Shown here: piece after piece, positions 8,039-62,833 of the stretch
How the letters are laid out: the number at the start of each line of letters is the position of its first letter
Numbering within the stretch: the stretch's first letter is position 1
Source of the DNA: Halichondria panicea
Taxonomy: Eukaryota; Porifera; Demospongiae; Suberitida; Halichondriidae
Assembly: GCF_963675165.1 (NCBI RefSeq)
Contig: NC_087393.1
Coordinates: 4,582,202 to 4,646,201 of the forward strand
Direction of reading: 5' to 3'
DNA: 64,000 bases
The notes under the pieces: model-generated
Databases searched by the model: none
Seen by the model: the letters and a program-made list of their open reading frames with translations, nothing else
What the model was told of the DNA's origin: nothing
Made by a program: the position numbers and the translations under genes

Positions 8039-8104
8039 TAACGGAGTTAAAAAAATTACTCTCTCCCCTGAGCCTTTTCTTAGGTGAAAAGGGGAGTAGC
8101 AAAT

Positions 8105-21733: not shown

Positions 21734-24027
21734 ATGAACATGGTATCGACAGTGGCCGTCTTATTGCTCCTTGTTCTTGGATCATTGCAAAAAATTAATG
21801 GTGAGTATACACAATAGAATGGTGTACAACACACAAAAATACAGAACTTTTGTATGCTATACCTCAATCATTTGCAGAATTCTCCTAGCTACGTATGATA
21901 TACCTATGTCTGAACACTTAATTGTATTTTGCCATTGTCATTCAGCCCAAGGAGATTGTCTTCTGACCAGTAATAGTAGTAGCGGTCCTCCAGATCACAT
22001 GATACCAGGAGCTCCGTTCTTTACCACCCAGGCCATCATCATTAGCTACAAGTTTAACTGTTGTGGAGTATAGTCACGGAGTGGAGAGCCTTCGTACACA
22101 ACAGTAATAACAGTCAAAATGACTCGTATCAGATCCTTTTCAGCGTGTGGAGACTCTCTCTTGTCACTGATGGCTGCTACATCTTGATCGGCTTTAACAT
22201 TTTCGAACTCTTTCCTTTACCACCGACCAATTCTGTCTCTGCTGACAGAGGAATATTGGTTGGGGTCACGATGGAGAGTGAGAGGATTGAGGTCCAACCA
22301 TGAGATGTGGTCGGGTTCTTACTCACGAATATCCAGATTGGTAACATCGAGTTTGCTAATGATTCTAACTACGAAAACGAAGATGTTAGGTATGCTGCTA
22401 ATGACAAAGTTACGCTTCAGACACCAGCTTGCCCATTTCCAGCCCACCCACAACGTTATCTCAATTCTTCCACTAACCTGGCTCCATTCATTACAGCAAC
22501 TATTGGTGAGTCATAATTTTATTATGTACGTATTTTCTAACTGATTTTGTTTCTCTCCGAAGTGAGTAAAGACTGTCCACACTCAGTAATAATGACACCT
22601 GCACCTTCAACCTCAATCGCCCCCCTCACACAAGTCACACAAGTCACATCCCTCACTGATGAACCAGACATAATGACACCGGAACCTTCAACCACAACCA
22701 CCTCCCTCACACAAGTCACATCCTTCACTGATGAACCACACATTATATTTCCTGTCACTACAGCAACTGTTTGTGAGTCAAGTACGTACGTATTTGTTTT
22801 CTAAATGATTTATTTTTCTCTCCCAAAGTAAGCACAGACATAATGACAGTATCGCCCACAACCACCCCCCTTACTGAGAACACACCCCCTCCTGCCGCAC
22901 TAGATACCACTAGCGTGGTGACAGGGTTTGTGACCGCTTTGATACTGATTATGGTCCTAGCTACGACTATAATTGTGGTTCTACTGGCTGTGGTTATTAG
23001 GATAAAGAAGAACAAGAGACCAAGTGTGGAAAAGAGTCACATAAACGGTGAGCTGTCATAAACAGTGAGCTGTTACAGTAGCCACAGTCTGAGGGGTTTT
23101 TGTTAAGCATTTTTGTGAGACCCTTTCATACATAATTATACTCACATGCAAATACACACGTAACTAGAATTCTAGACAATTAAACAGTCATACCCTAAAC
23201 TGTGAAAACAAACTTTCTTATTTGGAATTATAGGGCCTATAAATGTTTTTCCAAGAGCGTGTAGATTGGAATTGTAACATACTCTAAAATTAATCTCTGG
23301 CCCCTCCCACACATTCAACAGATGACAAGCTTGAACGGTCGGTGAGCACAGCAACAAGAGTAACAGAGCTAGTCCCAACTGAAGAGCCCCTCTACAGTTG
23401 CATAGAGTCGACAAGTGACTATAGCCACATTTCTGTACGTACAAATAATCCCGAAATTGTTACAGCAAAATTGAAAGTTACACCTGAATCAGGTCTACGA
23501 ACAGCGTTAAACGAAGCTTACGGAATGTTTGAAAGTATTGAAGTCTCAAAGACTAATACAGAATTAGAGTGTGCAGTTGATAATAACAAGACCGCAATGG
23601 AATGTGATGGACCAGTGACTGTCAGGAATGAAGCGTACGGAAGACTAACAGAGGATTCTGTAACAGGAGATGATTACTACGTGAACGAGGGAATGGGAGG
23701 GATAAATGAAGTAACCATGACAACAAACGAAGCATACGGCACAACCAAGCAACCACAAATGGCTAAGTTACCTACGACTATATTGCCAATCCTTCAGCTG
23801 TATCACATGATCCACCCACGATACTAAACCCGGCTTACGGTAATGTTACCATCACTAAAGATAGTGTCATAGCAACTGATGCTAACAAGTTGAGTGCAAC
23901 AGCAGAAGTGACAATGACAAGAAATGAAGCCTACGTTGGAGTAAGACAGTCGAGTTCTGACAATGACCCCTCAATACCCACCACAGAGAATGAGGCATAC
24001 AGTACAGTCCATAGTGTGACTGCATGA
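21734..24027 (+). pseudogene. Receptor array unit A (degenerate, divergent member)
   Basis: Exons 21734-21800 (signal peptide MNMVSTVAVLLLLVLGS), 21946-22505 (ectodomain), 22563-22772 and 22829-23047 (Thr/Pro stalk in two exons, then TM), 23322-24027 (tail with NEAYG, DYYVNEG, NEAYV). Three lesions: a 2-nt insertion after the CCGV motif near 22071 (exon length confirms it), a TGA replacing the Gly of the QPGD motif near 22301, and loss of one A near 23770 in the tail. Its ectodomain is more divergent than in other units (MIPGAPFFTTQ, YILIGFN), and it has one extra stalk exon, so it is probably an old branch of the family rather than a recent copy. Confidence 0.8.
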
Positions 24028-24379
24028 GAATGAACTTGAAACTTATTACTGCCTAAACTTAATACTAATTAGCAAGCAAACTCTATATCACGTTTATACA
24101 AGCATCTTGTATACGTACAATCTACCTGTAGCTATATTTACTATTGATATAAAGTGAATTGTTAACTGAAAGGTACAAAGTATAACCATGCATTATTCAA
24201 GGACATCACACACCGCACACAAAATCAGGAGTACACGTACGTACATGAATCTGACAAAACACAGCACATGCACATCCGTATAGAGGGAAATTGTTGCAAG
24301 TGCACATTTTCACTATTTGGCTCCAGAGCCCTCAGCAGAAAAATTAACAGTAGCTAAGAAGACCTTTGATTGGCCATAG

Positions 24380-25062
24380 TAACAATTATAATGATTCTAT
24401 TGTTGTTTATCATACAAAGAGAGCTAATAAACACAAGCAATCAGGTAAGGTACCTTGTAGACTATCAAATAAAACACATAATTATACTCCTCATTATTTC
24501 AGAAGTGGTTACCTACCAAGATACCAATAGCGGGAACTATGAATACATCGACACTGCCCCGATAACTAGCTCTAGTACAGAGGTCCCTTCAACTCAAGAG
24601 CCCCTCTATACTACCATCGAGGAATCAACTGACTCAAACAGCAACCTAACTCAGAGCACAGTTCATAGAGATGTTATCACAACAGATGATGATTACTACG
24701 TGAACGAGGGAATGGAAGGGATAAATGAAGTAACCATGACAACAAACAAAGCATATGACACAACCAAGCAAGCACAAATGGCCCAGTTAACCTATGACTA
24801 TGTCGCCAATCATTCAGCTGTATCACATGATCCAGATCCACCCACGATACTAAACCCGGCTTACGGTGATGTTACCACCACTAAAGATAGTGTCATAGCA
24901 ACTGACGCTAACGGGTTGAGTGGGACAACAGAAGTGCCAATGATAAGAAATAAAGCCTACGTTGGAGTGAGACAGTTGAGTTCCGACAATTACCCCTCAA
25001 TACCCACCACAGAGAATGAGGCATACACTAGTGTGACTGCTACACGTAACACTGAGACATAA
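24380..25062 (+). pseudogene. Unit B: transmembrane remnant plus tail exon only
   Basis: Contains the end of a TM segment (VTIIMILLLFIIQ), a donor at ~24446, and an intact type-1 tail exon 24503-25062 (186 codons) with LYTTIEES, YYVNEGM, LTYDYV, NPAYG, NKAYV and NEAYT. No signal peptide, ectodomain or stalk precedes it. Either a truncated duplicate or a tail module that could donate sequence to neighbours. The tail has no stop or frameshift. Confidence 0.75.
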
Positions 25063-26041: not shown

Positions 26042-27671
26042 ATGCACTACATCATTTGCTTACTGGCTTTGCTCTACTGTCAGACTAATGGTAGGTGGAT
26101 TAAGTGTGAAATCTTAAATATGATGTGTGATGGTTCTTTTTACAGCTCAGCAATGTCTTCGTGCAACTAATGGTGACAGGGATCTGCCAAACTTTGTCAG
26201 ACCAGGAGGCAATAGCGTGCCACGGTTTCTAGTCCAACCAATCCAAGCCATCATCACTAGCTACAGGTTCAACTGCTGTGGAGTTGTGACTCAATGGAGA
26301 GCCCTTGTGGAGAACAGTGGTTCTGGACACTTTGATGATCAGGCTTACACCATCTTCTTCCAAGTGTGGAGACCCAACTCTCTCTCACCCGTGAACACTG
26401 ATGGCTGCTACACGATGCAAGGCACTAACCATTTCCCATCCATTCCACTGTCTGATCCTGACACTGCTGACAGAGGAATAGTGACTGGGGTACCACTAGA
26501 GAGTGAGAGGATTGAGGTCCAACCAGGAGATGTGGTCGGGTTCTATCTGGAAAATAGTAGAGCTAATAATGATGGTATCCAGTTTGCTAGAAATAAAGAC
26601 AATAGAGACAACACAAGTCCGTACACCAATGGACTGTTTGGTTTGCTACTGGTTTACTGACCCCTCGCCCTGAGGCAACTTGCATGTATCCTGTCGGCAA
26701 ATCTCGTCTACTCAATTCCTCCACTAGCCTAGCTCCGCTCATCACAGCAACTATTTGTGAGTTCATTACAACACAATCAATTTTACGGTATTTATACTCT
26801 TTTATAGCAAAAACAGGCTGCCCTCCAAGGACAACTAAAGCCACTGCAACCCCAACAACCACAGCTGCCAACTCAGGTCCTACTACAGCAGCTGACAATA
26901 TTGGAGGAATAGCCGTACCAGTTGGTTTAGTAATGATTGCTGTAACAATTACATTGATTCTATCGTTGTTTGTCATACACAAGAGAAGAGCTAAAAAACA
27001 CAAGCAATTAGGTAAGATATACATTGCTTGAAGACTGTCAATTACAACACATAATAATACGTATTTCAGAAGTTTGAAGACTGTTAAATATCATTATTTC
27101 AGAAATGGTTACCTACCAAGCTACCAGTAATCAGTATGATGAAGACATCAACACTGCCCCGATAACTAGCTCTAGCACAGAGGTCCCTTCAACTCAAGAG
27201 CCCCTCTATACTACCATCGAGGAATCAACCGACTCAAACAGCAACCTAACTCAGAGCAAAGCCTGTGGAGATGTTATCACAACAGATGATGACTACTACG
27301 TGAACGAAGGAATGGGAGGGATAAATGAAGTAAAGATGACAACAAACGAAGCATACGACACAACCAAGCAACCACAGATGGCCCAGTTAACCTACGACTA
27401 TATTGCCAATCCTTTAGCTGTATCACCTGATCCACCCACGATACTGAACCAGGCCTACGGTACCAATAAAGAAAGTGTCATTGCAACTGAAGCTAGCAAT
27501 TTGAATGGGACAGCAGAAATAGCAATGATAAGAAATAAAGCCTACGTTGGAGTGAGACAGTCGAATTCTGACAATGATCCATCAATACCTACCACAGAGA
27601 AGGAGGAATATACACTATATAGTGTGACTGCTAACACTGAGTCGTATGACTACATTAGGAGCTTTGACTAA
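26042..27671 (+). pseudogene. Receptor array unit C (one-base frameshift)
   Basis: Exons 26042-26090 (MHYIICLLALLYCQTN signal peptide), 26146-26756 (ectodomain), 26808-27011 (short stalk and TM VGLVMIAVTITLILSLFVI), 27103-27671 (tail, 189 codons). The ectodomain exon is one base short relative to frame: after SPYTNG near 26630 the reading shifts and stops at 26658, whereas all other exons are open and in phase. Because only one base is missing in an otherwise clean gene, a sequencing error is possible. The stalk has only a partial 37-codon cassette. The tail carries YYVNEGM, LTYDYI, NQAYG, NKAYV and a C-terminal YDYI. Confidence 0.8.
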
Positions 27672-28091: not shown

Positions 28092-31000
28092 ATGCACTAC
28101 ATCATCTGCTTACTGGCTTTGCTCTACTGTCAGACTAATGGTAGGTGGACTAAAACTGTTTCAGTGTGTATTGTTAAATATGGTTCCTTTATAGCTCAGA
28201 AATGTTTTCGTACAACTAATGGTGACAGGCAACTACCAAACTTTGTCAGACCAGGAGGTAGTAGCGTACCACGATTTGAAGATAATCCAATCCAGGCCAT
28301 CATTACTAGCTACAAGTTCGACTGCTGTGGAGTGGTCACTGAGTGGAGAGCCTTTGTGGAGGGAAGTGGCGATGATCATTTTAAAGAGCAACCTTATACC
28401 ATCTCCTTCCAAGTGTGGAGACCCAACTTCCCCTCACGTGTGAACACTGATGGCTGCTACACTATGCAAGGCACTAACCATTTCTCACCCATCTCACTTG
28501 GTGATCCCGGCACAGCTGACAGAGGAATAGTGACTGGGGTACCACTAAAGAGTGAGAGGATTGAGGTCCAACCAGGAGATGTGGTCGGGTTCTATCTGGA
28601 GAGTAGGGGAAATTCTGGTGATGGTATCCAGTTTGCAAGAGATGGAGAGGACGAATCCGTTTGGTATACTAATGCTACTGGTGTTATCACTGATAGTGGT
28701 TTAACATGTCCACTTCCAGTCGGCAAAGGACAAACTCTCAGCTCTTTCACTAACCTAGCTCCACTCATCACTGTAACTGTTTGTAAGTGTATGAGAATTA
28801 TAACAATAGCAAATACGTTTACAAAGACTATACAATTCTATAGCAAGTGTTGCCTGTCCTATAACAACTCCAAGGACGACAACTGAGGCCACTGTAACCC
28901 CTCCAACCACTGCAGCTATAGCACCCACACCCTCTGGCAGGTCAGGTCCTATTACAGCAGCTGACAATGTTGGACTCTATGTGGGAATAGCAGTACCAGT
29001 TGGTTTAGTAACAATTACTGTAACAGTTATATTGATTCTATTGTTGTTCGTTATTCACAAGAGAAGAGCTAAAAAACACAAGCAATCAGGTAAGATACAC
29101 TGTATTTGAGTGTCAATTAATCTACTGTACGTCAAGTAATAAACATGCAAGCCATGCACCCAATTAGATACCATTACCACTACGAAGTTATGTCACTCTA
29201 GGTATCGATGAGTACAGCTACCCATTACCGCAACGCTCCTTGGAGGGTGAGCCGGACCATGACTGAAGGCCGTTAATATGGATAGGAAGCCCCTCTAATT
29301 AATTAGAGGGGTGCAACCTCGCTAATTAGATAATGATGAAGCGTTTCTAATAATTATGATGCTCCCCTAATTAAGTACTTGGGGGTAAAGAGGTGGCCTA
29401 GCCAACAGTCATAGCCACGGCTCAGTCATGTCGTACTGACAGAGAAATGTATAGAAACCAAGGGAGGGTTGGGTGTGGGGCTTTAAACTCAGGTAGCTAT
29501 AATCGAGCACGAGGTAGGTGTAGAGATAATTACGCATGCGCGTAAATGCTGGGCAGTACATAATGCAGTAGGCGGGGCAAGCGGAGTACATCGATTAACC
29601 TTGTTTAACTACCTTAAACATCATTTAATCTACTGTACGTCAAGTAATAAACATGCAAGCCATGCACCCAATTAGATACCATTACCACTACGAAGTTATG
29701 TCACTCTAGGTATCGATGAGTACAGCTACCCATTACCGCAACGCTCCTTGGAGGGTGAGCCGGACCATGACTGAAGGCCGTTAATATGGATAGGAAGCCC
29801 CTCTAATTAATTAGAGGGGTGCAACCTCGCTAATTAGATAATGATGAAGCGTTTCTAATAATTATGATGCTCCCCTAATTAAGTACTTGGGGGTAAAGAG
29901 GTGGCCTAGCCAACAGTCATAGCCCATCGGACGAATGTCCTACCCCCAAGGAATTAATACATCGATTGCGTAAAGGTAAGTATAGCAAAGCATATCATAA
30001 TGGACACAAACTAATGTCAGTATTCTCAGACTAAGAACAAATACGTTTAGACACCGCTGCTAGAAGTTGTGAGGGAGTGCGAACGTAGGTGATATATGCA
30101 GAGCTTTTCCATCGCCCGAGGGTTTGAATCATGGAGTCCTCGACGCCGTTCAGTGAAGCAGTCGTGGCTGCGCCGATTCTAAAACTGTGGCCTGCGTACA
30201 GCGAACTGTCAATGCCCCGTGATGAAAGAGCCTTACGGAAGGAGGAGGTAAATTTGCATTTTGTGAGAAGTGCGCCATCTTGGTAATGGAAGAGTAGGCC
30301 TGGATTTGTACCGCGAATGGCCAGGTAGTTAAGGAGTGCTGCTACGGGACAAAGAGCGCTGCCGGTGCGCCCAACATGAACATCGACTCCTTGTCTGAAT
30401 GGGTCTGTTTTGGATGCCTTTAAGTGCAGCCGAATAATGGACGGTTGCTGTGCATCGTTAACAGAGATATCTGCCAAGCAGAGATGGGCCGCGGGGTCGA
30501 AACAAGAGGGCGATGGGACAGTTATCTCACCAGATCGAAGAAACCCAAAGAAACATGTCAGAGAGGCAGCCCAGAGCATTACATTATCAAATGAGGGGTT
30601 ATGGAAAGCGAGCTGGAGCTCCTGTAGTATCTTGGGTGTGATGGGAAGACGTGTTTTTGGTTTTGAGGCGGGGTCTTTGGACTGTGATGATTTGATGCCT
30701 TTGAGTACGTATGTGAGCTTTGGCATATCGGTAGTAAATGGGTCTGCGTGAGAGTTTATAATGTGGTAATACCTGATTCCGGATAGGTATGATTTAATGG
30801 TTTGGTGCTTTAAGTGTTGTGTGCCTAGGAAAGCTACAAATTGGGTGAGGATAGTTTCGGTAGTGGGGTATGGGGTGTGAGTAGAGCGATGGCAGAAGTT
30901 GAGGTACCTGCGATGGGCTGTTGTGTAGGAGGAGATGGTGCTTTTGGCGAGGGCGGCTTGAAGGTAGCGTTGAACATTGAGCTCCAGGCTGGGGATGTCC

Positions 31001-34000
31001 AGTCGAGTCTGGAGATTGTGAGCAGGTCGATTAGGGCGGGGGGGATAGGATCCGGGTTGGGGAGGGCCTGTGGTGAGAGGGAGAGAAAGAGTTGTAAGTT
31101 ATTCCTGGACAGGGCGTCGGCGAGAATGTTGATTGAGCCAGGGAAATGAGTGGCTGTAAGGAGCAGATTATGCTTAGCAGTTATGAAAAACAGGCAGCGC
31201 ATGAGGGGCATTGCTTCGCAATCTTTGCTTGTTCCCGTATTAATGATTGCTACGACGGCTTCGTTGTCGCAGCGGCAGAGTATCGATTTTCCCTGCCATT
31301 GAGCGCCCCAGACTGCCACTGCAAAGACAATCGGTAGGAGTTCTTTGGCAGTGATGTGGAGACCTAATGTAGTGTGGGACCATTTATATTGGAACCAGCG
31401 ATCATTCCAGAAGGCGCCGCAGCCCCAATTCCCAGAGGCGTCGGAAGTGAGGATGATCTCAGGGTTTTCCCGCTGGTGGCTGCGCATCATGGAGAGCCCG
31501 TTCCAATCACCTATGAATTGTTTCCACCAGAGGATATCGGATCTTGCTTCGGTGTTTAGCCGGATGTGTGCTTCTCTGGGGCGGTTGTGAGAGGATTTCA
31601 GCAGGTCGACCAGGCGGCGAATGAAGGTGCGACCCGGTTTAATGACGATACTAGCGTCATGGAGGAGCCCTACGAGCGATTGCAGGTCACGTTTTAAACA
31701 TGACCTTCGTCCGGCCCAAGAGGTTAGTGTACGCTGGAGCCGTGACAGTTTTTCTGCTGGGAGACGTAGCTGGAGGAGAGATGTGTCTAGTTCGATACCC
31801 AGGAAAGTGAGGCATGTGGTAGGGCCCTCGAGTTTTTGCAGGGCCAAAGGTAATTTCAGAATCTTGCAGGTATCGACGAGCAGCTGGAGGTTGGTTTGGC
31901 ATTCGTGGCTGTGGGGTTTCCCTGTGGTGATAAAGTCGTCTAGGAAGTGATCTAGATTTGTAACCCCTCTTTCTAGGGCAATCCATTGGAGCCCGTCGGC
32001 TACAGCGTTAAATATCTTAGGGGCCGAGCGTAGGCCAAAGGGCAAGGTTGTGTCGATGTAGAGCTGGTTGTCCCACATCATCCCTAACAGATGGCGGTCA
32101 TCAGGGTGAATCGGAACATTTCTGAAAGCATTTTCTATGTCTATCTTAGCTAACAGTGTGTCGCGTCCTGACAAAAGGATTCGTGGGATGATGTAGTCTA
32201 CTTTTGTGTATGTCAGAGAGCAGAGCTGACGGGAGATACCGTCGTTAATGCTGTGGGATTTGGGGTGCGATAGGTCCAATATCAGTCGCCATTTTTCTGA
32301 GTGTTTTTTAGGTATAGCGCCAAGGCTGCTTGTGTGGACATATGGGTAGAGTGTTGGGTTAAGCGGGCCAACGAGTCGCTGTGCGCCGGTTTCGGCAAGG
32401 AGGGATTTTTTGATAATATCAGGGTGCTCGATGGCCGATGGGTGGTTGGTGGATGCTGAGCGGAGAGCGGTGTTAGTGTGGTCAAAGCCTATCCGGAAGC
32501 CATGGGCGATGCCGTGTAGTATGTACGATGCATAGTGTTGGTCGGGGTGATAATCTAGCCAGAGTTGCCATGCATCGTAGTTGAGCGGTGATGTAATGAG
32601 GGCTAAGCGGGGAGGCAAGGGCGGCGGTGCTGGGTTGATGTGAGAGGCAAGGGCGAGCAGGTCGGGAGTGTAGGGGTATAGTGGCGTCCCTGTGTGGGTG
32701 AAACTACGTAACATGCTTACTAATTACCATTGAACGTGTTGGACGTGTATAATCACGGCACATAATAATGGGGTAATCCGAAACACAAAGTGAAGCAATA
32801 ATAATGAGGCAACGCAAATGGCATAATAATGAAGCGATAAGGGTAACGCAATAGGCATAATAATGAAGATAATGAGGGTAATGAGAAACGCAGCAATAAT
32901 GAATAATGAGGCAACGCAAATGGCATAATAACGCAAATGGCATAATAATGAAGCGATAAGGGTAACGCAATAGGCATAATGAAGATAATGAGGGTAATGA
33001 GAAACGCAGCAATAATGAATAAGTAAGCACAGAGGGAAACACAACAATTAATAGTATGGGCAGGAGCTACGGGCAGGAGCTACTGGTGGCTTTTGTTGGG
33101 ACAGTGGGTTCTCGGGTGTCCTTGGACGCCGCATACTGAACACTTATGAGGGTAGCGACAAGAGAGGCCATATTTGCAGTTTCCACCGGACATGTTATAG
33201 TTGATGCAGTAGTCCCCTGGTGGTCTGGGGCGTTTGGGGGCGGGTGGCAATAGGGACCGGGGTTGAGACGGTGGGTGTTGTGGGGGGAGAGGATCAGTGG
33301 GGATAGGGTACCGTGGACAGTCAAAGGTGTGGTTACCTCCGTCTACCTGACATATCGGGCACCACGACACAGGGTTGCCTTGTCCGGTAAAGGCGAGGGA
33401 GTAAAGCTGGGTGTTAATGGTGGACCACTCTTGGCAGTGAGTTGTGGCGGCCCATTTTCTGTACTCTGTATCGTAGTACAGCCAAGAGGGGTACCGGAAT
33501 TTCTTGGCTGCCTTGACGATAAATAATTGATATGCTATTAATTCGGGTAAGGCTTGCGGGTGTCTGGACGAGAGGATTAGGATGTAGGTACTGTACAGCT
33601 GCACCCATGTGGCGATATCGATTATTTGCCTTTTTCGTTTCTTCTGGCTTTCCCAGCTACGCTGAGGGAAAAGGACGATTTGTGGGTCTGTGGTCGAAGA
33701 GCTGGAGCGAAGTTGATCGGGCAGCAGCTCCGAGAGGTCCGTGTACTGCCAGGAGAGGATCGTGTCGAGTAGTTTGGGGGGAATGGATGGAATGTCCGGG
33801 AAGCCCGCGAGAGGGTTGGTAGTGGGAGCAGGTGGGAGCGGAGCAGGTGGGGGCGCTGTGGGGTGGGTGGGGACCAGGGGTGGGGGTCGGATGCTGGCAG
33901 AGGGGGGCAGGAGCAGGGTTGGGGAGGAGTCAGCTTGGAAGGTAGGTAATCCAAGGGCGTGAATGGTGGCTGCGGACGGCATTCCGCTGTCTATGGTACC

Positions 34001-35236
34001 TGTGGGCGAGTGTGCGTCAGGGGGGGGGGGCGGGCTCGCCAAGTGATAGGTTGGCGGTATGAGCAGAGCAGGGCAGTATATTATAGAGCAGAGCGGTGGG
34101 CATAGAGTGGGCATAGAGCGGGCATAGAGAGCAGAGTAGGGCAGTATATTATAGAGCAGTACATTATAGAGCAGAGCGGTGGGCATGGAGCGGGCATAGA
34201 GTGGGCATAGAGCGGGCATAGAGAGCAGAGTAGGGCAGTATATTATAGAGCAGTACATTATAGAGCAGAGCGGTGGGCATAGAGTGGGCATAGAGTGGGC
34301 ATAGAGCGGGCATAGAGAGCAGAGCAGGGCAGTATATTATAGAGCAGTACATTATAGAGCAGAGCGGTGGGCATAGAGTGGGCATAGAGTGGGCATAGAG
34401 CAGGCATAGAGAGCAGAGCAGGGCAGTATATTATAGAGCCGTACATTATAGAGCAGAGCGGGCATAGAGTGGGCATAGGGCAGGGCGGGGCAGTATATTA
34501 TAGCAGGGCAATATATAGTATGGGGCAGAGCGGGGCAGTATTTTATAAGTTGTTATTGTAGGGTGTAGGCTGTTATAAGCAATATGGGTGAGGGCAGGGC
34601 AGGGTGGGCAGTAAATGTAGGACTCACGGTGATGAGGCTGGTGGGTCTGTTGAGCTGCAGCCAAGGCCTGCTCGAGGGTGGAGAGTCTTTCGTTGAGGGC
34701 CACCAGGTCGGCGGATGTGTCCCTCGGTGTAGGAGAGATGGAACCAGAGGGAGAAGACATCTTTAAACTCAGGTAGCTATAATCGAGCACGAGGTAGGTG
34801 TAGAGATAATTACGCATGCGCGTAAATGCTGGGCAGTACATAATGCAGTAGGCGGGGCAAGCGGAGTACATCGATTAACCTTGTTTAACTACCTTAAACA
34901 TCATTTAAAAACACACATACATATTATTTTATTTCAGAAGTGGCCTACCAAGCTACCAATAGTGAGCACAATTATGAAGACATCAACACTGCCCAAATAA
35001 TTAGCTCTAGCAAAGAGGTCCCTTCAACTCAAGAGCCCCTCTATACTACCATCGAGGAATCAACTGACTCAAACAGCAACCTAACTCAGAGCAAAGTCTA
35101 TGAGGATGTTATTACAACAGAGGACTACTACTACGTGAACGAAGGAATGGGAGGGATAAATGAAGTAACCATGACAACAAACGAAGCATACGGCACAACT
35201 AAGCAACCTCAAATGGCTCAGTTAACCTATGACTAA
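28092..35236 (+). CDS. Receptor array unit D, split by a retrotransposon in its last intron
   Basis: Exons 28092-28140 (signal peptide), 28195-28782 (ectodomain), 28844-29089 (stalk and TM), 34938-35236 (tail). All phases agree, so the gene is spliceable if the 5.85 kb last intron, carrying the Ngaro element, is removed. The ectodomain has the family core FVRPGG, SFQVWRP, DGCYTMQGTN, RIEVQPGDVVGFYLES, and a distinct C-terminal part (GVITDSGLTCPLPVGKGQ) shared with unit F. The stalk is short. The tail is only 99 codons: it stops right after LTYD, losing the second half (NQAYG, NEAYV, NEAYT) found in neighbours. Intron 1 is 54 nt, in frame and free of stops. Presumed type I membrane protein with truncated signalling tail. 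Confidence 0.75.
29117..29416 (-). repeat. Ngaro split direct repeat A, outer copy
   Basis: 300 bp repeated at 29625-29924 with a constant offset of 508. Contains an internal palindrome around CCCCTCTAATTAATTAGAGG. Confidence 0.9.
29481..29628 (-). repeat. Ngaro split direct repeat B, inner copy
   Basis: 148 bp matching 34761-34908 with a constant offset of 5280. It abuts the inner A repeat with a few bases of overlap. Confidence 0.9.
29625..29924 (-). repeat. Ngaro split direct repeat A, inner copy
   Basis: Copy of 29117-29416, no difference found by eye. Confidence 0.9.
30031..30990 (-). CDS. Tyrosine recombinase (YR) of the Ngaro element
   Basis: Integrates the element by site-specific recombination of cDNA. 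The catalytic domain shows FLRSGE (first Arg region), HSFRIGAATTA (HxxR) and GRWKSSAYITYVR (Trp/Tyr region with the nucleophile). The methionine-initiated part spans 30726-30031, but the same frame continues upstream through LNVQRYLQAALAKS and YLSGIRYYH, which look like the N-terminal core-binding domain. It overlaps the end of the RT reading frame (from 30834) in another frame. How translation starts (frameshift, reinitiation or splicing) is not visible. It looks intact. Confidence 0.88.
   Translation of the reverse strand, partial: SLELNVQRYLQAALAKSTISSYTTAHRRYLNFCHRSTHTPYPTTETILTQFVAFLGTQHLKHQTIKSYLSGIRYYHIINSHADPFTTDMPKLTYVLKGIKSSQSKDPASKPKTRLPITPKILQELQLAFHNPSFDNVMLWAASLTCFFGFLRSGEITVPSPSCFDPAAHLCLADISVNDAQQPSIIRLHLKASKTDPFRQGVDVHVGRTGSALCPVAALLNYLAIRGTNPGLLFHYQDGALLTKCKFTSSFRKALSSRGIDSSLYAGHSFRIGAATTASLNGVEDSMIQTLGRWKSSAYITYVRTPSQLLAAVSKRICS
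30834..32714 (-). CDS. Reverse transcriptase-RNase H of the Ngaro element
   Basis: 626 residues, uninterrupted. RT motifs in order: WRLILDLSHPKSHSIND, LLAKIDIENAFRNVPIHPDD, LPFGLRSAPKIFNAVADG and the active-site LDHFLDDF (FLDD variant as in DIRS/Ngaro RTs). RNase H follows with ILTSDASGNWGCGAFW, AKELLPIVFAVAVWG, RCDNEAVVAIIN and ILADALSR. No protease or integrase domain is seen, consistent with YR elements. The last ~50 codons are Pro/Ser-rich and overlap the recombinase frame. Confidence 0.92.
   Translation of the reverse strand: MLRSFTHTGTPLYPYTPDLLALASHINPAPPPLPPRLALITSPLNYDAWQLWLDYHPDQHYASYILHGIAHGFRIGFDHTNTALRSASTNHPSAIEHPDIIKKSLLAETGAQRLVGPLNPTLYPYVHTSSLGAIPKKHSEKWRLILDLSHPKSHSINDGISRQLCSLTYTKVDYIIPRILLSGRDTLLAKIDIENAFRNVPIHPDDRHLLGMMWDNQLYIDTTLPFGLRSAPKIFNAVADGLQWIALERGVTNLDHFLDDFITTGKPHSHECQTNLQLLVDTCKILKLPLALQKLEGPTTCLTFLGIELDTSLLQLRLPAEKLSRLQRTLTSWAGRRSCLKRDLQSLVGLLHDASIVIKPGRTFIRRLVDLLKSSHNRPREAHIRLNTEARSDILWWKQFIGDWNGLSMMRSHQRENPEIILTSDASGNWGCGAFWNDRWFQYKWSHTTLGLHITAKELLPIVFAVAVWGAQWQGKSILCRCDNEAVVAIINTGTSKDCEAMPLMRCLFFITAKHNLLLTATHFPGSINILADALSRNNLQLFLSLSPQALPNPDPIPPALIDLLTISRLDWTSPAWSSMFNATFKPPSPKAPSPPTQQPIAGTSTSAIALLTPHTPLPKLSSPNL
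32760..33030. repeat. Tandem duplication between gag and RT frames
   Basis: A ~120 bp unit containing AATGAAGCGATAAGGGTAAC is present about twice, itself made of short AATAATGA-type repeats. It lies in the non-coding gap between the gag stop (33080) and the RT start (32714). Confidence 0.75.
33080..34760 (-). CDS. Gag-like protein of the Ngaro element (two exons)
   Basis: I read exon 1 at 34760-34628 (MSSPSGSISPTPRD, then a coiled-coil-like LVALNERLSTLEQALAAAQQ) and exon 2 at 33999-33080, joined over a GTGAGT donor and CCCACAG acceptor with matching phase (133 nt ends in phase 1; 2 + 918 nt follow). Total ~350 residues. The C-terminus has a CCCH finger (C-x9-C-x5-C-x3-H) directly followed by a CCHC knuckle (CSVCGVQGHPRTHC), expected for nucleic-acid binding. 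The middle is Pro-rich. The intron holds a minisatellite that gives spurious open frames. The splice is inferred. Confidence 0.75.
34065..34480. repeat. Minisatellite in the gag intron
   Basis: About five copies of an 85-95 bp unit containing GAGCAGAGCGGTGGGCATAG and GGGCAGTATATTATAGAGCA, with internal ~10 bp repeats. Lies wholly within the inferred gag intron (34000-34627). Confidence 0.85.
34761..34908 (-). repeat. Ngaro split direct repeat B, outer copy
   Basis: Copy of 29481-29628 at the 5' end of the element. The gag ATG (34760) starts immediately after it. Confidence 0.9.
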
Positions 35237-46400: not shown

Positions 46401-46402
46401 AG

Positions 46403-46790: not shown

Positions 46791-46793
46791 AAC

Positions 46794-50424: not shown

Positions 50425-51040
50425 AAAACACAAGCAATCAGGTAAGGTACATTGTATTTGAGTGTCAATTAAAAACACGCATACATAGTATGTTTTCATT
50501 ATTTCAGAAGTGGTTACCTACCAAGCTACCAATAGTGAGCACAACGAAGACATCAACACTGCCCCGATAATTGGCTCTAGCAAAGAGATCCCTTCAACTC
50601 AAGAGCCCCTCTATACTACCATCGAGGAATCAACTGACTCAAACAGCAACCTAACTGAGACAACAATAGATGCCCAGGGCTACTACAGGAACGTGGGAAT
50701 GGACACCATGAAAACAAACGAAGCATACGACACAACCAAGCAACCACAAATGGCCCAGTTAACCTACGACTATATCGTCAATCCTTTAGCTGTATCACAT
50801 GATCCACCCACGATACTGCTGAACCAGGCCTATGGTACCAATAAAGAAAGTGTCATTGCAACTGACGCTAGCAATTTGAGTGGGACAGGAGAAGTGGAAA
50901 TGATAAGAAATGAAGCCTACGTTGGAGTAAGACAGTTGAGTTCTGACAATGACCCCTCAATACTCACCACTGAGAATGAGGCATACACTAGTGTGACTGC
51001 TAACACTGAGCTTGAAGATGACTATGTTGTTAGAACTTAA
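50425..51040 (+). pseudogene. Unit H tail, out of frame with its TM exon
   Basis: The end of the TM exon (donor at 50442) and the tail exon 50508-51040 (177 codons) remain open, with LYTTIEES, GYYRNVGM, NEAYD, LTYDYI, NQAYG, NEAYV, NEAYT. It is unreachable in frame because of the 17-nt TM deletion. Confidence 0.7.
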
Positions 51041-51716: not shown

Positions 51717-52128
51717 ACAATGAAGACATCAACACTGCCCCGATTATTACTCACATCAAAGCCAATGGGGCACAACAGATGGCGACTACTACGTGAACGA
51801 GGGAATGGGAGGGATAAATGCATGAAAACAAACGAAGCATACGGCACAACCAAGCAACCACAAATGGCTAAGTTAACCTACGACTATATTACCAATCCTT
51901 CAGCTGTATCACATGATCTACCCACGATACTAAACCCGGCTTACAGTGATGTTACCACTACTAAAGATAGTGTCATAGCAAATGACGCTAACAAGTAGTG
52001 GGACAGGCAATGAGAGGATAAAAAATGAAGCCTACATTGGAGTAAGACAGTCGAGTTCTGACAATGACCCCTCAATACCCACCACAGAGAATGACACGTA
52101 CTAGTGTGACTGCTAACACAGAGCCATA
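51717..52128 (+). pseudogene. Unit I: decayed tail-only fragment
   Basis: Starts inside the tail (ACAATGAAGACATCAACACT) with internal deletions. Pieces of YYVNEGM, NEAYG, LTYDYI, NPAYS and the C-terminal part are in different frames. No upstream exons. Confidence 0.75.
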
Positions 52129-52393
52129 ATTATGGAGCCTTGACTAATCGAGCACAGAACACATCATACGTACACTATGGTACATGTATATACACACTTG
52201 TGATACTTTATTTTATATCCTATGATTAGACTTTTGTGACACCAATTTTGGTGTAAATTAATGACAATATCCAACACATAGTGCAATTAGTGATAATAAA
52301 CATGAAGTATATCAGTAACTGTGCATTGTCAAAGTGATCGACTCCTGCTACTGATATAGCTAGTACAAAGGCACAGGAGATTTGTTGAATAAG

Positions 52394-54309
52394 ATGCACT
52401 ATATCATCTGCTTACTGGCTTTGCTCTACTGTCAGACTAATGGTAGGTGCATGGACTAAAACTGTGTCAGTGTGTATTTTTTAATACGGTTCTTTATAGC
52501 TCAGCAATGTCTTCGTGCAACTAATGGTGACAGGGATCTACCAAACTTTGTCAGACCAGGAGGTAGTGGCGTGCCACGGTTTGAAAAAAATCCAATCCAA
52601 GCCATCATCACTAGCTACAGGTTTGACTGCTGTGGAGTGGTGACTGAGTGGAGAGCCTTTGTGCTTGGCAGTGATGGTGCGTACTATAGAGATCAACCTT
52701 ACACCGTGTCCTTCCAAGTGTGGAGACCCAACTCCCCCTCACCCGTGGACACCAATGGCTGCTACACTATGCAAGGCACTAACTATTTCTCACCAATCTC
52801 ATTGGCTGATAATCTAAGTGCGGATAGAGGAATAGTGACTGGGGTACCACTAGAGAGTGAGAGAATTGAGGTCCAACCAGGAGATGTGGTCGGATTCTAT
52901 CTGGAGAGTAGTAGATTAACTAGTGATGGTATCCAGTTTGCTGGACATTTTGACAACCCAAGTCCGTACATTGATGAAACAGTTTGGTTTGCTACTGATT
53001 CACTGACTCCTTACCCTGAGGCAACTTGCATGTATCCTATCGGAACATCTGGTCTACTCAGTTCCTCCACTAGCCTAGCTCCACTCATCACAGCAGCAGT
53101 TTGTGAGTTTATTAGAACAAACAAATGTTAAGGAATTTATACCTTTTTATATAATTATAGCAGCTGCTGCCTGTCCTATAACTGGAAGGACAACTGAAGC
53201 CACTGTAACTCCTACAACCACAACTATAGCACCCCTAACTCTACACACCTCACCCACACCCTTACAAGCCCCTGACACGACACAAGACAGCAACCCAGGT
53301 CCTACTGAAGCCATTGTAACCTCTACAACCACAGCTATAGCACCACCATCCCTACACACCTCACCCTCAACATCAAAAGCCCCTGACACAACAAAATACG
53401 GCAACCCAGTTCCTACTGAAGCTACTGTACCCTCTACAACCACAACTATAGCACTCCCAACCCTACACCCCACACCCACACCCTTACAAGAAGCCCCTGG
53501 CATGACACAAGACAGCAACCCAGGTTCTACTGAAGTCACTGTAACCCCTACAACCACAACTATAGCACCCCCAACCCTACACACCTCACCCACACCCTCA
53601 CAAGTCCCTGACACGACAACAGACGGCAACCCAGGTCCTACTACAGCAGCTGACAATGTTGGACTCTATGTGGGAATAGCAGTACCAGTTGGTTTAGTAA
53701 TGATTGCTGTAACAATTATATTGATTCTATCGTTGTTTGTCATACACAAGAGAAGAGCTAAAAAACACAAGCAATCAGGTAAATACATTGTATTCGATAA
53801 AACACATATAATTATGTTTTATTATTTCAGAAGTGGTTACCCATCAAGCTACATATTACGAAAACATCAACACTACCCCGATAATTAGGTCTAGGACTAC
53901 AACTCAAGAGCCCCTCTATACTACCGTCGAGGAATCAACCAGCAGCCTAACACAGAGCAACGACTATTGGAACATAACAAGAGATGTGCAGGGGAAAACC
54001 ATGACAACAAACGAAGCATATGGCACAACCAAGCAACTACAAATGGCCCAGTTAACCTACGACTATATTGACAATCCTTCAGCTGTATCACATGATCCAC
54101 ACACGATACAGAACCAGGCCTATGGTGATGTCATAGTATTTGACGTTAGCAAGTTCAGTTGGACAGGAGAAGTGGGAATGATAAGAAATGAAGCATACGT
54201 TGGAGTGAGACAGTTAAGTTCTGACAATGACCCCTCAATACCCACCACAGAGAATGAGGCATACACTAGTGTGACTGCTGACACCGAGACTGAAGAAGGT
54301 TATGACTAA
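52394..54309 (+). CDS. Receptor array unit J, intact, longest stalk
   Basis: Exons 52394-52442, 52500-53102, 53161-53778, 53831-54309 (49, 603, 618, 479 nt), all in phase. The signal peptide is standard. The ectodomain carries its own variants (SGVPRFEKNP, LGSDGAYYRDQ, SSRLTSDG, DSLTPYPEATC). The stalk has four 37-38-residue Thr/Pro cassettes (TTTTIAPLTLHTSPTP type), the most in the array, so the ligand domain would stand furthest from the membrane. The TM and HKRRAKKHK are standard. The tail is shorter (159 codons): it lacks the YYVNEGM block, keeps NEAYG, LTYDYI, NQAYG, NEAYV and NEAYT, and ends at YD because TAT became TAA, losing the C-terminal YVRP. The same stop occurs in fragment L. 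Confidence 0.85.
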
Positions 54310-56095: not shown

Positions 56096-56948
56096 ATGCA
56101 CTACATCATCTGCTTACTGGCTTTGCTCTACTGTCAGACTAATGGTAGGTGGACTAAAACTGTGTCAGTGTGTATTGTTAAATGATGGTTTCTTTATTGC
56201 AGCAATAACTACAAAGACTGTCTGCCCAAGTTCAAGTCTCACCCTCACCCCATCCTCACACCGTATGCTCACCCCCACCACCACCCCCACCCCCACCCCC
56301 ACCCCCACACCTCCACCCTCAACGTCTCTACCTCCTGCTACTACCGACACAGATCCTGCTCGTGCAACTGATAGTGCATGGATAGTGCTACCAGTGATGC
56401 TAATAGTAGTCTGTGCTGCTTTATTGACAGTGATTAAAGTAACATCTCGATCAGGTATACTAAAATATGCACAATAATTTATGTACGCTACACTAAACTG
56501 AACATCTTACGTATACAATTATTTACATTTAATATGCAGTTCCTGAAAATCAAGAAATGGAAATGGACCCAATGACAGATGAGAATGAAGCATATGGCCA
56601 GCTGGGGAAGAAGCTAGGTCACCTGACTATCACTCTTTTGGCTACATGGACGAGACAGACTTGACTATTGCAGCCACACAAACCCCGGCCGACCTAATAA
56701 CAGTCAGTAATGACACAAACTATTACGAGATTGAGGACGAGATAGGAATGACAACAAATAAAGCTTATGCTGGGACTAGAGTCACGGATGTTGAGGTTGC
56801 AACTGACGCTAACAAGTTGAGTGGGACAGCAGAAATGGCAATGATAAGAAATGAAGCTTATGCTGTGACCAGAGATACAGTCCCAGACGTTGAGCATGAG
56901 GACTACTATTATGAGTATGTAGGACCTCTTGAAATGTCTAACATGTGA
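56096..56948 (+). pseudogene. Receptor array unit K: no ectodomain, tail frameshift
   Basis: Exons 56096-56144 (standard signal peptide), 56203-56454 (stalk with a CCCCCA/TPTPTP microsatellite, then TM WIVLPVMLIVVCAALLTVI), 56540-56948 (type-2 tail). No ectodomain exon lies between signal and stalk, but splice phases fit directly. In the tail one G is missing (GGGGAAGAAG versus GGGGGAAGAAG in the related 47.9 kb copy), which shifts the frame near 56607 and soon stops. The rest of the tail stays open in another frame (NKAYAG, RNEAYAV, YYYEYVG). Could be a one-base assembly error. Confidence 0.7.
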
Positions 56949-57659: not shown

Positions 57660-58266
57660 TAATAATTCTATTGTTGTTTTTTATTTACAAGAAATGAGCT
57701 AAAGAACACAAGCAATAATGCAGGTACAAACCGTATTCGATAAAACACATATAATTATATTTTAATTATTTCAGAAGTGGTTTCCTACCAAGCTAGCTAC
57801 ACATTATAAAGTATGAAGACATCAACACTACCCCAATATAACTAGGTCAAGGACTACAACTCAAGAGCCCCTCTATACTACCATCGAGGAATCATCCAGT
57901 AGCCTAACACAGAGCAACGACTATTGGAACATAACAAGAGATGTGCAAGGGAAAACCATGACAACAAACGAAGCATACGGCACAACCAAGCAACCACAAA
58001 TGGCCCAGCTAATCTACGACTATATTGCCAATCCTTCAGCTGTATCACATGACCCACCCACGATAAAGAACCAGGCCTATGGTGATGTCATAGCATGTGA
58101 CGTTAGCAAGTTCAGTTGGGCAGCAGAAGTGGAAATGATAAGAAATGAAGCCTATGTTGGAGTGATACAGTCGAGTTCTGACACTGACCCCTCAATACCC
58201 ACCATAGAGAATGAGGCATACACTAGTGTGACTGCTAACACTGAGCCTGAACAAATTTATGACTAA
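57660..58266 (+). pseudogene. Unit L: TM remnant and tail, J-like
   Basis: 57660-57720 resembles the end of the TM exon with an in-frame stop after YKK. The tail from 57775 has early frame damage (AGTATGAAGACATC, CCAATATAACTAGG) and then is open from 57943: NEAYG, LIYDYI, NQAYG, NEAYV, NEAYT, ending YD-stop. Shared features with J (no YYVNEGM, DYWNITRDVQGK, same terminal stop) show recent common ancestry. Confidence 0.75.
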
Positions 58267-59358: not shown

Positions 59359-60205
59359 ATGCACTACATCATCTGCTTACTGGCTTTGCTCTACTGTCAG
59401 ACTAATGGTAGGTGGACTAAAATTGTGTCAGTGTGCATTGTTAAATATGATGTACTATAGCTCAGCAATGTCTTTGTGCAACTAATGGTAACAGGGATCT
59501 ACCAAACTTTGTCAGACCAGGAGGTGGGCTAGAGCCACGGTTTAGAGACAACCCAATCCAGGTCATCATCACTAGCTACAGGTTCGACTGCTGTGGAGTG
59601 GTGACTGAGTGGAGAGCCTTAGTGGAGAAGTTTACTGATCAGTCCTATACCATCTTCTTCCAAGTGTGGAGACCCAACTCCCCCTCACCCATGGACACTG
59701 ATGGCTGCTACACTATGCAAGGCACTAACTATTTCTCACCAATCTCACTTGGTGATCGTGGCACTGATGACAGAGGAATAGTGACTGGGGTACCACTAGA
59801 GAGTGAGAGGATTGAGGTCCAACCAGGAGATGTGGTCGGGTTCTATCTGGAGAGTAGTATAAGAATTGATGATGGTATCCAGTTTGCTAGAGATGCAAAT
59901 CTGTACACTGATGAGACAGTTTGGTTTGCTACTGGTTCACTGACTCCTCGCCCTGAGGCAACTTGCATGTATCCTGTCGGCACATCTGGTCTACTCAGTT
60001 CCTCCACTAACCTAGCTCCACTCATCACAGCAACTGTTTGTGAGTTCATTACAACACAAGCAATGTTATGGAATTTATACCTTTTTATATAATTATAGCA
60101 ACTGCTGCCTGTCCTATAACTGGAAGGACACACCCCCACCCCCACACCCTCAACATCTCCACTTCCTGCTACTACCGACACAAATCCTGCTCGTGCAACA
60201 GATAA
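59359..60205 (+). CDS. Receptor array unit M, predicted secreted ectodomain
   Basis: Exons 59359-59407 (standard signal peptide), 59461-60039 (ectodomain, intact: RPGGGLEPRFRDNP, VEKFTDQ, SSIRIDDG), and 60099 onward. The third exon begins as a type-1 stalk (ACPITGRT) but switches within a few codons to the type-2 stalk in the wrong frame (HPHPHTLNISTSCYYRH), ending at TAA 60203-60205. Exon length (196 nt) confirms a frame mismatch. The product would be a signal peptide plus ectodomain with no TM, so likely secreted, unless an unseen alternative splice restores the type-2 frame. Confidence 0.65.
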
Positions 60206-60788
60206 TACAGTGTATGCGTGGATAGTGCTACCAGTGATGCTAATAGTAATCTGTGCTGCATTATTGACAGTGACCAAAGTAATATCTCGATCAGGTGTGT
60301 TAACGACTTATTAAACTGCACATGCATCTTATACGTACATCAGTATTCATAGTTTACATTATGCAGTTCCTAACAATCAAGAAGTGAAAATGGACCCAAT
60401 AACAGACGAGAACGAAGCATATGGCCAGATGGGGGAAGAAGCTATGTCACCTGACAACCACTCTTATGACTACATGGACGAGACAGACTTGACTATTGCA
60501 GCCACACAAAACCCAGCCTACCTAACAACAGTCAGTGATGACACAAACTATTACGAGAATGAGGACGAGACAGAAAAATCTGTAATGAAAGCAAATGAAG
60601 CTTATGCTGTGACCAAAGAGACAGCCACAGATGTTGAGGTTGCAACTGGCGCTAACAAATTGAGTAGGACAGCAGAAATGGCAATGATAAGAAACGAAGC
60701 TTATGCTGTGACCAGAGATACAGTCACAGATGCGGAAGATGTGGACAATTATGAGTATGTAGGAGCTCCTGAAATTCCTAACATGTGA
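60206..60788 (+). pseudogene. Unit M type-2 TM and tail, out of frame
   Basis: Downstream, a type-2 TM (WIVLPVMLIVICAALLTV) to a donor at 60295 and an open tail exon 60367-60788 (140 codons: NEAYGQMGEE, SYDYMDETDL, NEAYAVT twice, NYEYVGAPE). They are coherent with each other but one frame off the ectodomain. Treated as disabled in this haplotype. Confidence 0.65.
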
Positions 60789-61569
60789 TTTCAATTTTGT
60801 ACAATACTTTGTGTGACACGAACAGAGTAATGACCCATATAAGTCAAATTGCATGCATCCCATAAATTATAAGAGTATCAAATAATTATGATTGTCAAGA
60901 TTGACAGTACTATATTAAACGCATGCATGCAGGTGTAACACAATAGTTACGACAGATTGCATAAGAAACATGTACATAATTGTTATTAAGCATAGTTTCT
61001 GCATGAACTACAGATTGGGTGCGAAGACATTGACAATTCCGGAAGGTTTATAGTCATGCATTGAATATTTAAACATGCAGTGCTATCTGCATGCAGACAG
61101 AGTGTCTATAACTTTTTTATGGTTTATTGGCAAAACACATCAAACTAAAACTGTTACCAGCTAGTACACGCATACTGAGCAAAATATACACAAGTTAACG
61201 TAACTTAATGAGGGGAATATTTAGCAGGAAGATAAATAACACTTTATATGGCGCACTTGTTGTCAAGGTGAGCCGGAAGTTTATGTGTACTTAGCAATTA
61301 CACAAGTTATATAACTAATGAGGGGGACAGTTAGTGCGAAGATAACCCTTTTATGGCATCTGTTTTCAGGGTGAGGCTAACAAATCGTTATACGTAGGTG
61401 GTATAGACAAACAAATTGGTTGTCGGTGCATGCCCTAATGCATGTACAAAGCACAAATCTAATATGGAATTAGTGGTACACTGCACGTACATACACATCC
61501 CTTCAACTGACTGCAGAAGTATAAAATGCAAGCTTTTGAATATTTACCTATAGCTTCAAATAGTCAAAA
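60789..61569. other. Spacer M-N
   Basis: 3' flank of a type-2 unit, then a short direct repeat: AAGTTAACGTAACTTAATGAGG near 61190 versus AAGTTATATAACTAATGAGG near 61303, each followed by TTAGnnnGAAGATAA. No gene. Confidence 0.5.
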
Positions 61570-62833
61570 ATGATGCTTCTACTTATGATACTGTTTTGCT
61601 CAGGCATTAAAGGTAAGTAACATTGTTATAGTACGTAAGCACAGCTAAAGGTTACACGCTATAATTGTCTGCAGGTGAGGAGCATCTTCTTGCTAGCAAC
61701 GGCACTAGACCTCTACCAATATTTATCAGACCGCACGGTATGATGGCTCATCGTTTCATGGAGAACCCCATCCAGGCTATCATCACTAGCTACAGGTTCG
61801 ACTGCTATGGAGTGGTCACTGAGTGGAGAGCCTTTGTAGAGGGGAGTGGTGGTGCTCACTTTAAAGATCAACCTTACACCATCTCTTTCCAAGTGTGGAG
61901 ACCCAACTCTCCCTCACCCGTGGACACTGATGGCTGCTACACTATGCAAGGTACTAACCATTTCCCATCCATTCCACTTGCTGATGATAGAAGTGCTGAC
62001 AGAGGAATAGTGACTGGGATACCACTAGAGAGTGAGAGGATTGAGGTGCAACCAGGAGATGTGGTCGGGTTCTATCTGGAGAGTAGCCACATGAGGGATA
62101 GCAACCACGACGGAATCCAGTTTGCACCTGATTCTACTTACAAAAGTGAAGCTGTTTGGTATGTTACAGGCAGCTATAATAAAGGTCCTACAGATTGTCC
62201 ATTCCCCGTTGGCCCAAAGAGGGTGCTCTCCAGTTCAACCAATCGAGCTCCTCTCATCACGGCAACAGTTTGTAAGTTAATAACGTTTTTAACATATCAC
62301 TTTTACAACAATTGCTTTATTTTAGCAACTACCAATTGTCAGCGTATTTCTATTGCCGTCCCATCTACCACACCCCCACTACAAGCTTCTACTACCACAC
62401 CCACAGAACCACTACCAGCGTATGCAGTGGGGCTGTATGTAACGATAGCAGCAACAACAGTCGTCATACTCGTTTTTTACTAGTGCTGTTTGCAGCTACA
62501 AAGATTAATAAAAGTCGTAGAAGAAATAATCAAGCTCAGAGAGCCCCTAGGCAACACGATGAAGCAATTACAGTAGTACAAACAGAGGAAGTAAATATGG
62601 TACCCATACACGTACATTCAGAAGCCAGTACACCAGTTGAAGTTGATCCAACATCAACAGCAAAGAACAAGGCATACGGAATGTTTACAGAGACCAATTC
62701 GACCTCAGACTACACATACTGTTACGCTAATGACACTCCTAGCTGCAACGATATTACGACAACAGCTGACAAGACCGGCAGCACTACAGATCATCATAAC
62801 ACCGAGGAAATTCATTCATATGACAATAAATGA
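61570..62833 (+). CDS. Receptor array unit N, divergent, homopolymer frameshift
   Basis: Exons 61570-61612 (a different signal peptide, MMLLLMILFCSGIKG), 61675-62271 (ectodomain, in frame), 62326 onward (short stalk, TM and tail without intron). The ectodomain keeps SFQVWRP, DGCYTMQGTN and QPGDVVGFYLES but differs at both ends (RPHGMMAHRFMENP, GSYNKGPTDCPFPVG), with Tyr at the first of the CC pair. In the TM (VGLYVTIAATTVVILVF) the frame hits TAG at 62481-62483. One additional T in the T6 run (~62474-62479) would continue into LLVLFAATKINKSRRR and a tail ending 62833 with NKAYGMF and DYTYCYAND. Either a base-calling/assembly error or a real truncation right at the membrane. Type-3 tail, unlike the others. 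Confidence 0.7.

Follow-up and report, generated by a model that had tools for sequence, protein, structure and literature searches.

We identified a tandem array of 13 receptor-like units in a 64,000-nucleotide stretch of the genome of the demosponge Halichondria panicea (C17:4,582,202–4,646,201, hereafter the window), located at window positions 21,738–62,833 with every unit on the plus strand. The array likely represents a germline-encoded, tandemly duplicated and recombining family of type I membrane recognition receptors. The gene anatomy, the confinement of variability to loops, recombination, an excess of tail motifs, and a transmembrane (TM)–tail cassette shared with genes carrying other ectodomain types support this reading. 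The original prediction, made from the letters of the window, had proposed about 14 genes in tandem on one strand of a sponge-like animal; the arrangement and the animal are as proposed, but the count is 13.

Units were detected with gene models and with profiles grown from the ectodomain, stalk/TM and tail modules of unit E (Table 1). The four intact units (E, F, G and I) are composed of a signal peptide, an ectodomain exon of 582–603 nt, a Thr/Pro-rich stalk with TM segment, and a tail of 156–179 residues, separated by introns of 47–221 nt. Intron phases of 1/1/1, previously claimed throughout, apply to the four exons of E, F and I; in unit G the TM and tail exons are merged and the phases are 1/1. 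Units D and L have phases 1/1 across the exons present, and in M phase 1 follows each of the first two exons. Unit C has phases 1/0/0 because of a frame break in its ectodomain exon, the signal exon of unit H lacks a GT donor, and unit A is frame-broken. The spliced models of L and M are letter-identical to RefSeq P0015 (LOC135351302) and P0030 (LOC135351301 isoform X2), each annotated as "uncharacterized protein".

An ectodomain exon is present in 10 of the 13 units (A, C, D, E, F, G, H, I, L and M), and a 300-nt stretch of it recurs beyond chance in nine copies, eight of which are 75–93% identical to the reference copy (family D1). Nine units (A, B, C, D, H, J, K, L and M) are broken or partial. 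The secreted, ectodomain-less and tail-only forms described earlier are indeed present, as L, J, and B and K, respectively, with a tail-like sequence (60435–60764) downstream of the stop codon of L. The earlier list of intact members (E, F and J) holds for E and F, although its letters may not correspond to ours. The stalk is built from a 111-bp repeat, with 2.0 copies in H, 4.0 in I and, counted by eye, two in E and about one in F and G; in the stalk of unit E, 53% of the residues are Thr, Ser or Pro. The ectodomain of unit C is frame-broken in the assembly, and record P0008 has an unbroken version of the same protein; the break is either a polymorphic pseudogene or an assembly error.

The ectodomain falls into no named family, as had been anticipated, so far as Pfam scans of the window ectodomains and their relatives extend. 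The frames of D, F, G, H, I, L and M have no match at E ≤ 0.1, the ectodomains of E and C have none at E ≤ 1, and unit E together with 62 relatives matches only two families, in one member each (E = 0.046 and 0.078). Specifically, neither immunoglobulin (Ig) nor SRCR domains are matched at E ≤ 0.1 in these 63 members or in seven further window frames, and SRCR is likewise unmatched in the frames of scaffold C11 that were scanned. Sushi has no match in the 63 members or the seven frames and is present in unlinked C11 genes; Calx-beta has none by Pfam in the window frames or the 63 members. These scans speak against an Ig, SRCR, Sushi or other Pfam identity of the window ectodomain, and no match to a well-described non-recognition family emerged. 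A sequence search of the PDB returned chance-level matches only (carbonic anhydrase 7, E = 0.33; best profile match, E = 0.66).

AlphaFold models of two different members, the unit E ectodomain being one, fold into all-beta sandwiches. For both models the best structural matches are remote and include a Cwp84 lectin-like chain and carbohydrate-binding module (CBM)-type domains, with 3–13% identity among the matches listed, mostly bacterial enzymes and surface proteins. The Ig fold is not among the matches listed for either model, an absence that excludes nothing, and no binding site in common with the Cwp84 or CBM matches was identified. We predict that the ectodomain is a ~200-residue, jelly-roll-like, lectin/CBM-like beta-sandwich.

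Variability was measured in 11 ectodomains, comprising window units D, E, F, G, H, I, L and M and three copies from 5.59–5.60 Mb; the set excludes the broken units A and C and one copy at 4.55 Mb that is more divergent. Column entropy averages 0.25 over the predicted strands and 0.93 over the remaining positions, a contrast that no circular shift out of 199 equals. In particular, the N-loop and loops CD, EF, GH, HI and IJ are variable (entropy 0.77–1.89), loops BC, DE and FG hardly so (0.22–0.29), and the C-terminal J–K stretch is middling (0.49–0.71). The contrast recurs in the 16 of 62 aligned relatives with at least 70% identity to unit E (strand 0.28, loop 0.94, 0/199 shifts; DE 0.56), three of which (P0020, P0028 and P0030) duplicate, exactly or almost exactly, copies in the first set. 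It is less sharp in the 37 relatives below 60% (1.24 versus 1.93, 1/199); the nine in between were left unused. The variability is confined to loops, mostly alternate ones, an alternation which suggests a single variable pole if neighbouring strands are antiparallel.

The ratio of nonsynonymous to synonymous substitution (dN/dS) is 0.57 overall, 0.50 in the framework and 1.12 in the 25 of 205 columns picked as variable; because these columns had been picked after the fact, selection is not proved and no claim of positive selection is made. A pairwise homoplasy index (PHI) test run with our own script detects recombination (138 informative sites; 0/2000 permutations at each of three widths). 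Together with mosaic relatives, this supports the unequal exchange proposed earlier; whole-module shuffling is not shown inside the window, unlike the sharing of the tail cassette between scaffolds. The ectodomain data reject an E+F+G clade (approximately unbiased test, p = 6e-6), but that clade had been picked by eye from the tails and is not shown by the tail tree, in which D+F is not rejected (p = 0.45), so a conflict between ectodomains and tails is not proved.

The tails contain repeated NxxY motifs beyond chance, a motif of phosphotyrosine-docking type by sequence. In 10 tails (A, D and J left out), which are related copies and hence not independent tests, nine carry 3–6 NxxY versus 0.6–1.1 in shuffles, and the remaining one, M, carries 1 versus 0.4. 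Yxx-hydrophobic motifs number 3–7 in nine tails versus 1.8–2.6 in shuffles (M, 0 versus 0.7). By contrast, the immunoreceptor tyrosine-based inhibitory motif (ITIM) pattern is not enriched (0–2 per tail versus 0.2–1.0 in shuffles of the same 10 tails), and the corresponding activation motif (ITAM), searched as Yxx(I/L) x6–12 Yxx(I/L), is absent from intact units E, F, G and I and from five other tails, with two matches in the tail-only K. Among eight aligned tails, 7 of 13 tyrosine columns are invariant, four of the seven lying within NxxY in the majority of tails; taken together, tyrosine columns show only slightly higher conservation than the rest (0.90 versus 0.86). SH2 and PTB exons occur in the genome.

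Beyond what the original prediction had noted, the TM–tail cassette, intron included, also occurs on scaffold C11. Tail searches reveal five places there (4.886–4.960 Mb). At all five, likeness to unit F begins just ahead of the TM segment and continues through the TM–tail intron into the tail (84–85% DNA identity over 456–544 bases); the largest blocks shared with units H and B are 76–87% identical over 287–744 bases. Pfam places Sushi (L029) and EGF_CA (L039) upstream of the TM segment, and at L037 a partial Sushi shares one open frame with the TM segment. An 8-kb stretch of C11 contains EGF_CA, one more Sushi, one Calx-beta above the cut-off and a second Calx-beta below it, and the frames scanned at L031 and L032 contain no domain. 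Judged from order and strand, these Sushi and EGF exons would belong to the same genes as the cassette, as is seen within a single frame for L037. In a tree of 11 tails, two from C11 group together as a clade (95/95), consistent with a single transfer and subsequent local duplication. Of all the sequence evidence, this sharing argues best for the tail as a reusable part. The TM–tail copies at C11:4,925,786 and 4,959,937 (both minus strand), 34 kb apart and adjoining long TG/CA repeats, have identical tail search scores and are probably a recent duplication.

In the genome searched (131.5 Mb, 39 contigs), the unit E ectodomain matches 52 exon-level places (E = 9.5e-180 to 3e-4), of which 51 are on C17, none is on C11, and the remaining one, a weak match, is on C16. 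The C17 places comprise a cluster at 4.51–4.57 Mb (all minus strand), the window (plus strand), 5.22–5.23 Mb, 5.58–5.60 Mb and singles. Because the tail and TM profiles also match the minus-strand cluster, the window array is one side of a larger cluster flanking INTS1, P450 and cyclin genes. A profile search among 8000 scored candidates found at least 1206 relatives at E ≤ 0.01, and among the 120 relatives listed the only species name is H. panicea. Records P0156 and P0157, from other contigs, keep the ectodomain (P0156 begins inside it), stalk, TM segment and tyrosine tail, so the receptor architecture is not limited to the window locus.

Table 1. Receptor units and related fragments in the window (positions of the window)
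Feature	Coordinates	Strand	Structure	Basis or remark
Unit A	21738–24021	+	Degenerate ectodomain 21738–22513 (several frames broken)	Profile matches
Unit A, stalk/TM	22849–23019	+		Weak profile match (independent E-value 0.04)
Unit A, tail	23318–24021	+	Frame broken	Profile match
Unit B	24370–25062	+	Tail-only	Profile 24502–25056
Unit C	26042–27671	+	Signal 26042–26090; ectodomain 26146–26756 (frame break); stalk/TM 26808–27011; tail from 27103	
Unit D	28092–29089	+	Signal 28092–28140; ectodomain 28195–28782; stalk/TM 28844–29089	Phases 1/1
Tail piece	34940–35233	+		Separated from unit D by the DIRS-like element
Unit E	36175–38088	+	Exons 36175–36223, 36278–36880 (ectodomain), 36930–37325 (stalk/TM), 37547–38088 (tail)	Intact
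Unit F	39381–40976	+	Exons 39381–39453, 39508–40089, 40139–40390, 40438–40976	Intact
Unit G	44201–45706	+	Exons 44201–44249, 44315–44914, 44964–45706 (stalk, TM and tail together)	Intact
Possible tail fragment	47950–48123	+		Weak profile match (independent E-value 0.007–0.05)
Unit H	49324–51040	+	Ectodomain 49420–50016; stalk/TM 50063–50441 (TM deletion); tail 50508–51040	
Tail fragment	51798–52101	+	Frame broken	Profile match
Unit I	52394–54309	+	Exons 52394–52442, 52500–53102, 53161–53778, 53831–54309	Intact, long stalk
Unit J	56096–56924	+	Signal 56096–56144; stalk/TM from 56203; tail match 56604–56924	Ectodomain-less
Unit K	57817–58266	+	Tail-only	
Unit L	59359–60205	+	Exons 59359–59407, 59461–60039, 60099–60205	Secreted form
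Unit M	61570–62833	+	Exons 61570–61612, 61675–62271, 62326–62483; ends after TM	Tail-like open frame to 62833

A retroelement which we take to be DIRS-like (window 30031–34874, minus strand) lies between the TM exon of unit D and a tail piece that, we infer, probably belongs to this unit. It encodes a reverse transcriptase (RVT_1, E = 4.6e-13), a tyrosine-recombinase-like frame (hit by SAM-like and integrase models at E = 1.6e-4 to 1.7e-3, none reaching its cut-off) and a 418-residue frame without Pfam match, and contains a 94-bp tandem array. Elsewhere, the window carries a tandem pair of highly alike cytochrome P450 genes (4803–6368 and 8580–10286, plus strand), tandem arrays with units of 38 bp (7253–8372) and 44 bp (47500–47788), and a small receptor-like gene (15189–16879, plus strand, opposite to INTS1), which comprises a Pro/Thr stalk, a TM-like stretch and a tail with repeated ENIYDND tyrosine motifs and has no Pfam match above cut-off. 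An Rfam scan of the window gave no matches. The chromosome-level assembly odHalPani1 is mentioned in the available text of a 2025 proteomics study (PMC12345144). C17 measures 5,739,701 bases in the genome searched and 5,741,248 as the contig of the H. panicea RefSeq proteins, despite the letter identity of units L and M; a different version of one assembly, or masking, is the probable cause.

Taken as a recognition receptor family, the units would display variable loops, probably at one pole of the lectin/CBM-like sandwich, toward a diverse ligand, which may be a microbial or cell-surface glycan or a surface protein of another sponge. The Thr/Pro-rich stalk, with its variable repeat number, would set the reach. 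We infer that the loops bind ligand, that ligand clustering leads to phosphorylation of the tail by a tyrosine kinase, and that the NxxY and Yxx-hydrophobic motifs then recruit PTB and SH2 adaptors. The secreted, tail-less and ectodomain-less copies may be by-products of exchange or decoys. The same TM–tail cassette would serve the second, unlinked gene set with Sushi/EGF and probably Calx-beta exons, so that different recognition domains may feed one pathway. The recognition role proposed originally is supported by the loops, the recombination, the tail motifs and the shared cassette.

Within the recognition reading, we lean toward the sensing of microbes or glycans rather than allorecognition. 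On this view, the receptors would be innate pattern-recognition lectins, carried by feeding or immune cells, that sort food, symbionts and pathogens, and changing microbial surfaces would have diversified the copies. We regard this as a tentative but serious candidate, consistent with the predicted likeness to carbohydrate modules and with the size of the repertoire. H. panicea is reported to handle native and foreign vibrios differently, but the accessible part of that report names no receptor of such kind (PMC12345144), and no glycan-binding residues were identified in the ectodomain.

Allorecognition, in which cluster haplotypes decide fusion or rejection by allele-specific or homotypic binding as in Hydractinia Alr and Botryllus fuhc, is possible but less probable. 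The locus did not prove invariant, as records elsewhere differ from the window, though their individuals and species are uncertain. In a comparison against a database clustered at 90%, 143 of 148 relatives align over at least 120 residues to ectodomain frames of this genome (five dropped); 13 are at least 95% identical, 6 at 90–95%, 19 at 80–90%, 24 at 70–80%, 15 at 60–70% and 66 below 60%. The 70–95% class contains 46 relatives after removal of this genome's own P0008 (unit C), P0030 and P0040 (unit M). One other contig (1,472,025 bases), which also has a cluster mate of G, matches D at 98.5%, H at 99.3% and L at 98.6%, but F at 87.6% and M at 88.3%; overall, some units of related records are 98–99% identical and others 87–92%, in blocks. 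Of 193 ectodomain positions, 24 distinguish F from P0023: 10 lie within residues 10–40, 13 within 142–177 and one in between. The unusual signal exon of F is common to P0023 and P0027. E and P0001 agree at every one of the first 96 ectodomain residues and diverge thereafter.

These block-wise differences look like allelic mosaicism and, with the patchy divergence between records of seemingly the same gene and the 46 of 143 intermediate relatives, favour allorecognition. However, they could also stem from paralogues or a sister species, as the database is clustered at 90% and gives no species for those contigs, and the comparison has no neighbouring gene as a control. In addition, the fold bears no sign of homophilic binding, and many paralogues alone do not indicate allorecognition. 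Unlikely, on our assessment, is a wider histocompatibility-type system, in which receptors of the C17 supercluster would decide self or non-self and share an interchangeable tyrosine cassette with the C11 Sushi/Calx-beta/EGF set in one decision pathway; if true, one of the animal lineages that branched off earliest would have polymorphic recognition that is coupled to tyrosines and uses a non-immunoglobulin ectodomain.

Two explanations dispense with recognition. Mucin-stalked variable receptors for cell or matrix contact, in adhesion or development, could have expanded by drift and gene conversion; a framework dN/dS of about 0.5 with positive selection unproved, the many broken copies, and the adhesion-type Sushi, EGF and Calx-beta neighbours on C11 are in keeping with this, but drift poorly explains loop-concentrated variability that no shift among 199 matches in two largely different sets, and we judge it improbable. 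A largely decaying duplicate array, retained by chance in the vicinity of transposons and by now of little function, would account for the 9 of 13 damaged units and the DIRS-like element inside unit D, but is very doubtful given four intact units with coherent splice sites, an overall dN/dS below 1, existing RefSeq models and a genome-wide family of 52 exon places.

In the titles and abstract openings surveyed, mostly without subscription papers, the family is not described. The parts of a review available to us describe how invertebrate allorecognition works as a complete mystery (PMC12065747), and the accessible text of a graft transcriptome study reports no enrichment of genes for aggregation-factor-mediated adhesion (PMC5450542). 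The receptors by which sponges discriminate microbes and other sponges are poorly known, and a mapped cluster with an unnamed ectodomain, loop-confined variability and recombination, whose tail is shared with a second receptor set, opens this old question to tests of segregation and binding at two loci, on C17 and C11.

The window family can be set beside several known systems. Vertebrate paired receptors (KIR, LILR, SIRP and SIGLEC) are arranged in tandem clusters in which signalling parts are shared, ectodomains vary, some forms are soluble or lack a tail, and exchange takes place between copies; they use immunoglobulin folds and ITIM/ITAM signalling; no homology to them was found in searches of Pfam, PDB and protein databases. 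Hydractinia Alr genes encode clustered, polymorphic membrane receptors with tyrosine tails and immunoglobulin-superfamily ectodomains. Alr and the window family are alike in clustering, membrane receptors and tyrosine tails, and differ in that the window family has the predicted jelly-roll-like sandwich and NxxY-rich tails; membership in Alr is unproved. Sponge aggregation factors, polymorphic allorecognition candidates with Calx-beta domains, are secreted proteoglycan cores, and their likeness to our system lies in the Calx-beta exons of the C11 stretch. In the accessible part of the review above, both ITAM and ITIM are reported for Hydractinia candidate allorecognition genes, and Botryllus fester co-receptors combine a signal, Ig, Sushi and TM segments with a long tail bearing ITIM, hemITAM or a Y-x-x-I/L/V core (PMC12065747). 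The C11 set likewise joins Sushi to tyrosine-motif tails, whereas the window ectodomain has neither Sushi nor Ig by Pfam, and in its tails ITIM is unenriched and, in intact units, ITAM is absent. SRCR genes number 296 in Amphimedon, according to the available text of PMC10855680, and the aggregation receptor of Geodia cydonium joins SRCR to short consensus (Sushi) repeats (PMC4557014, accessible text). Like the sponge SRCR superfamily, the window family is a large sponge receptor expansion, but its membership in the fester, SRCR or aggregation-receptor families is not supported. The window receptors most likely work in the manner of paired receptors or of Alr and fester, through an ectodomain unrelated to theirs.

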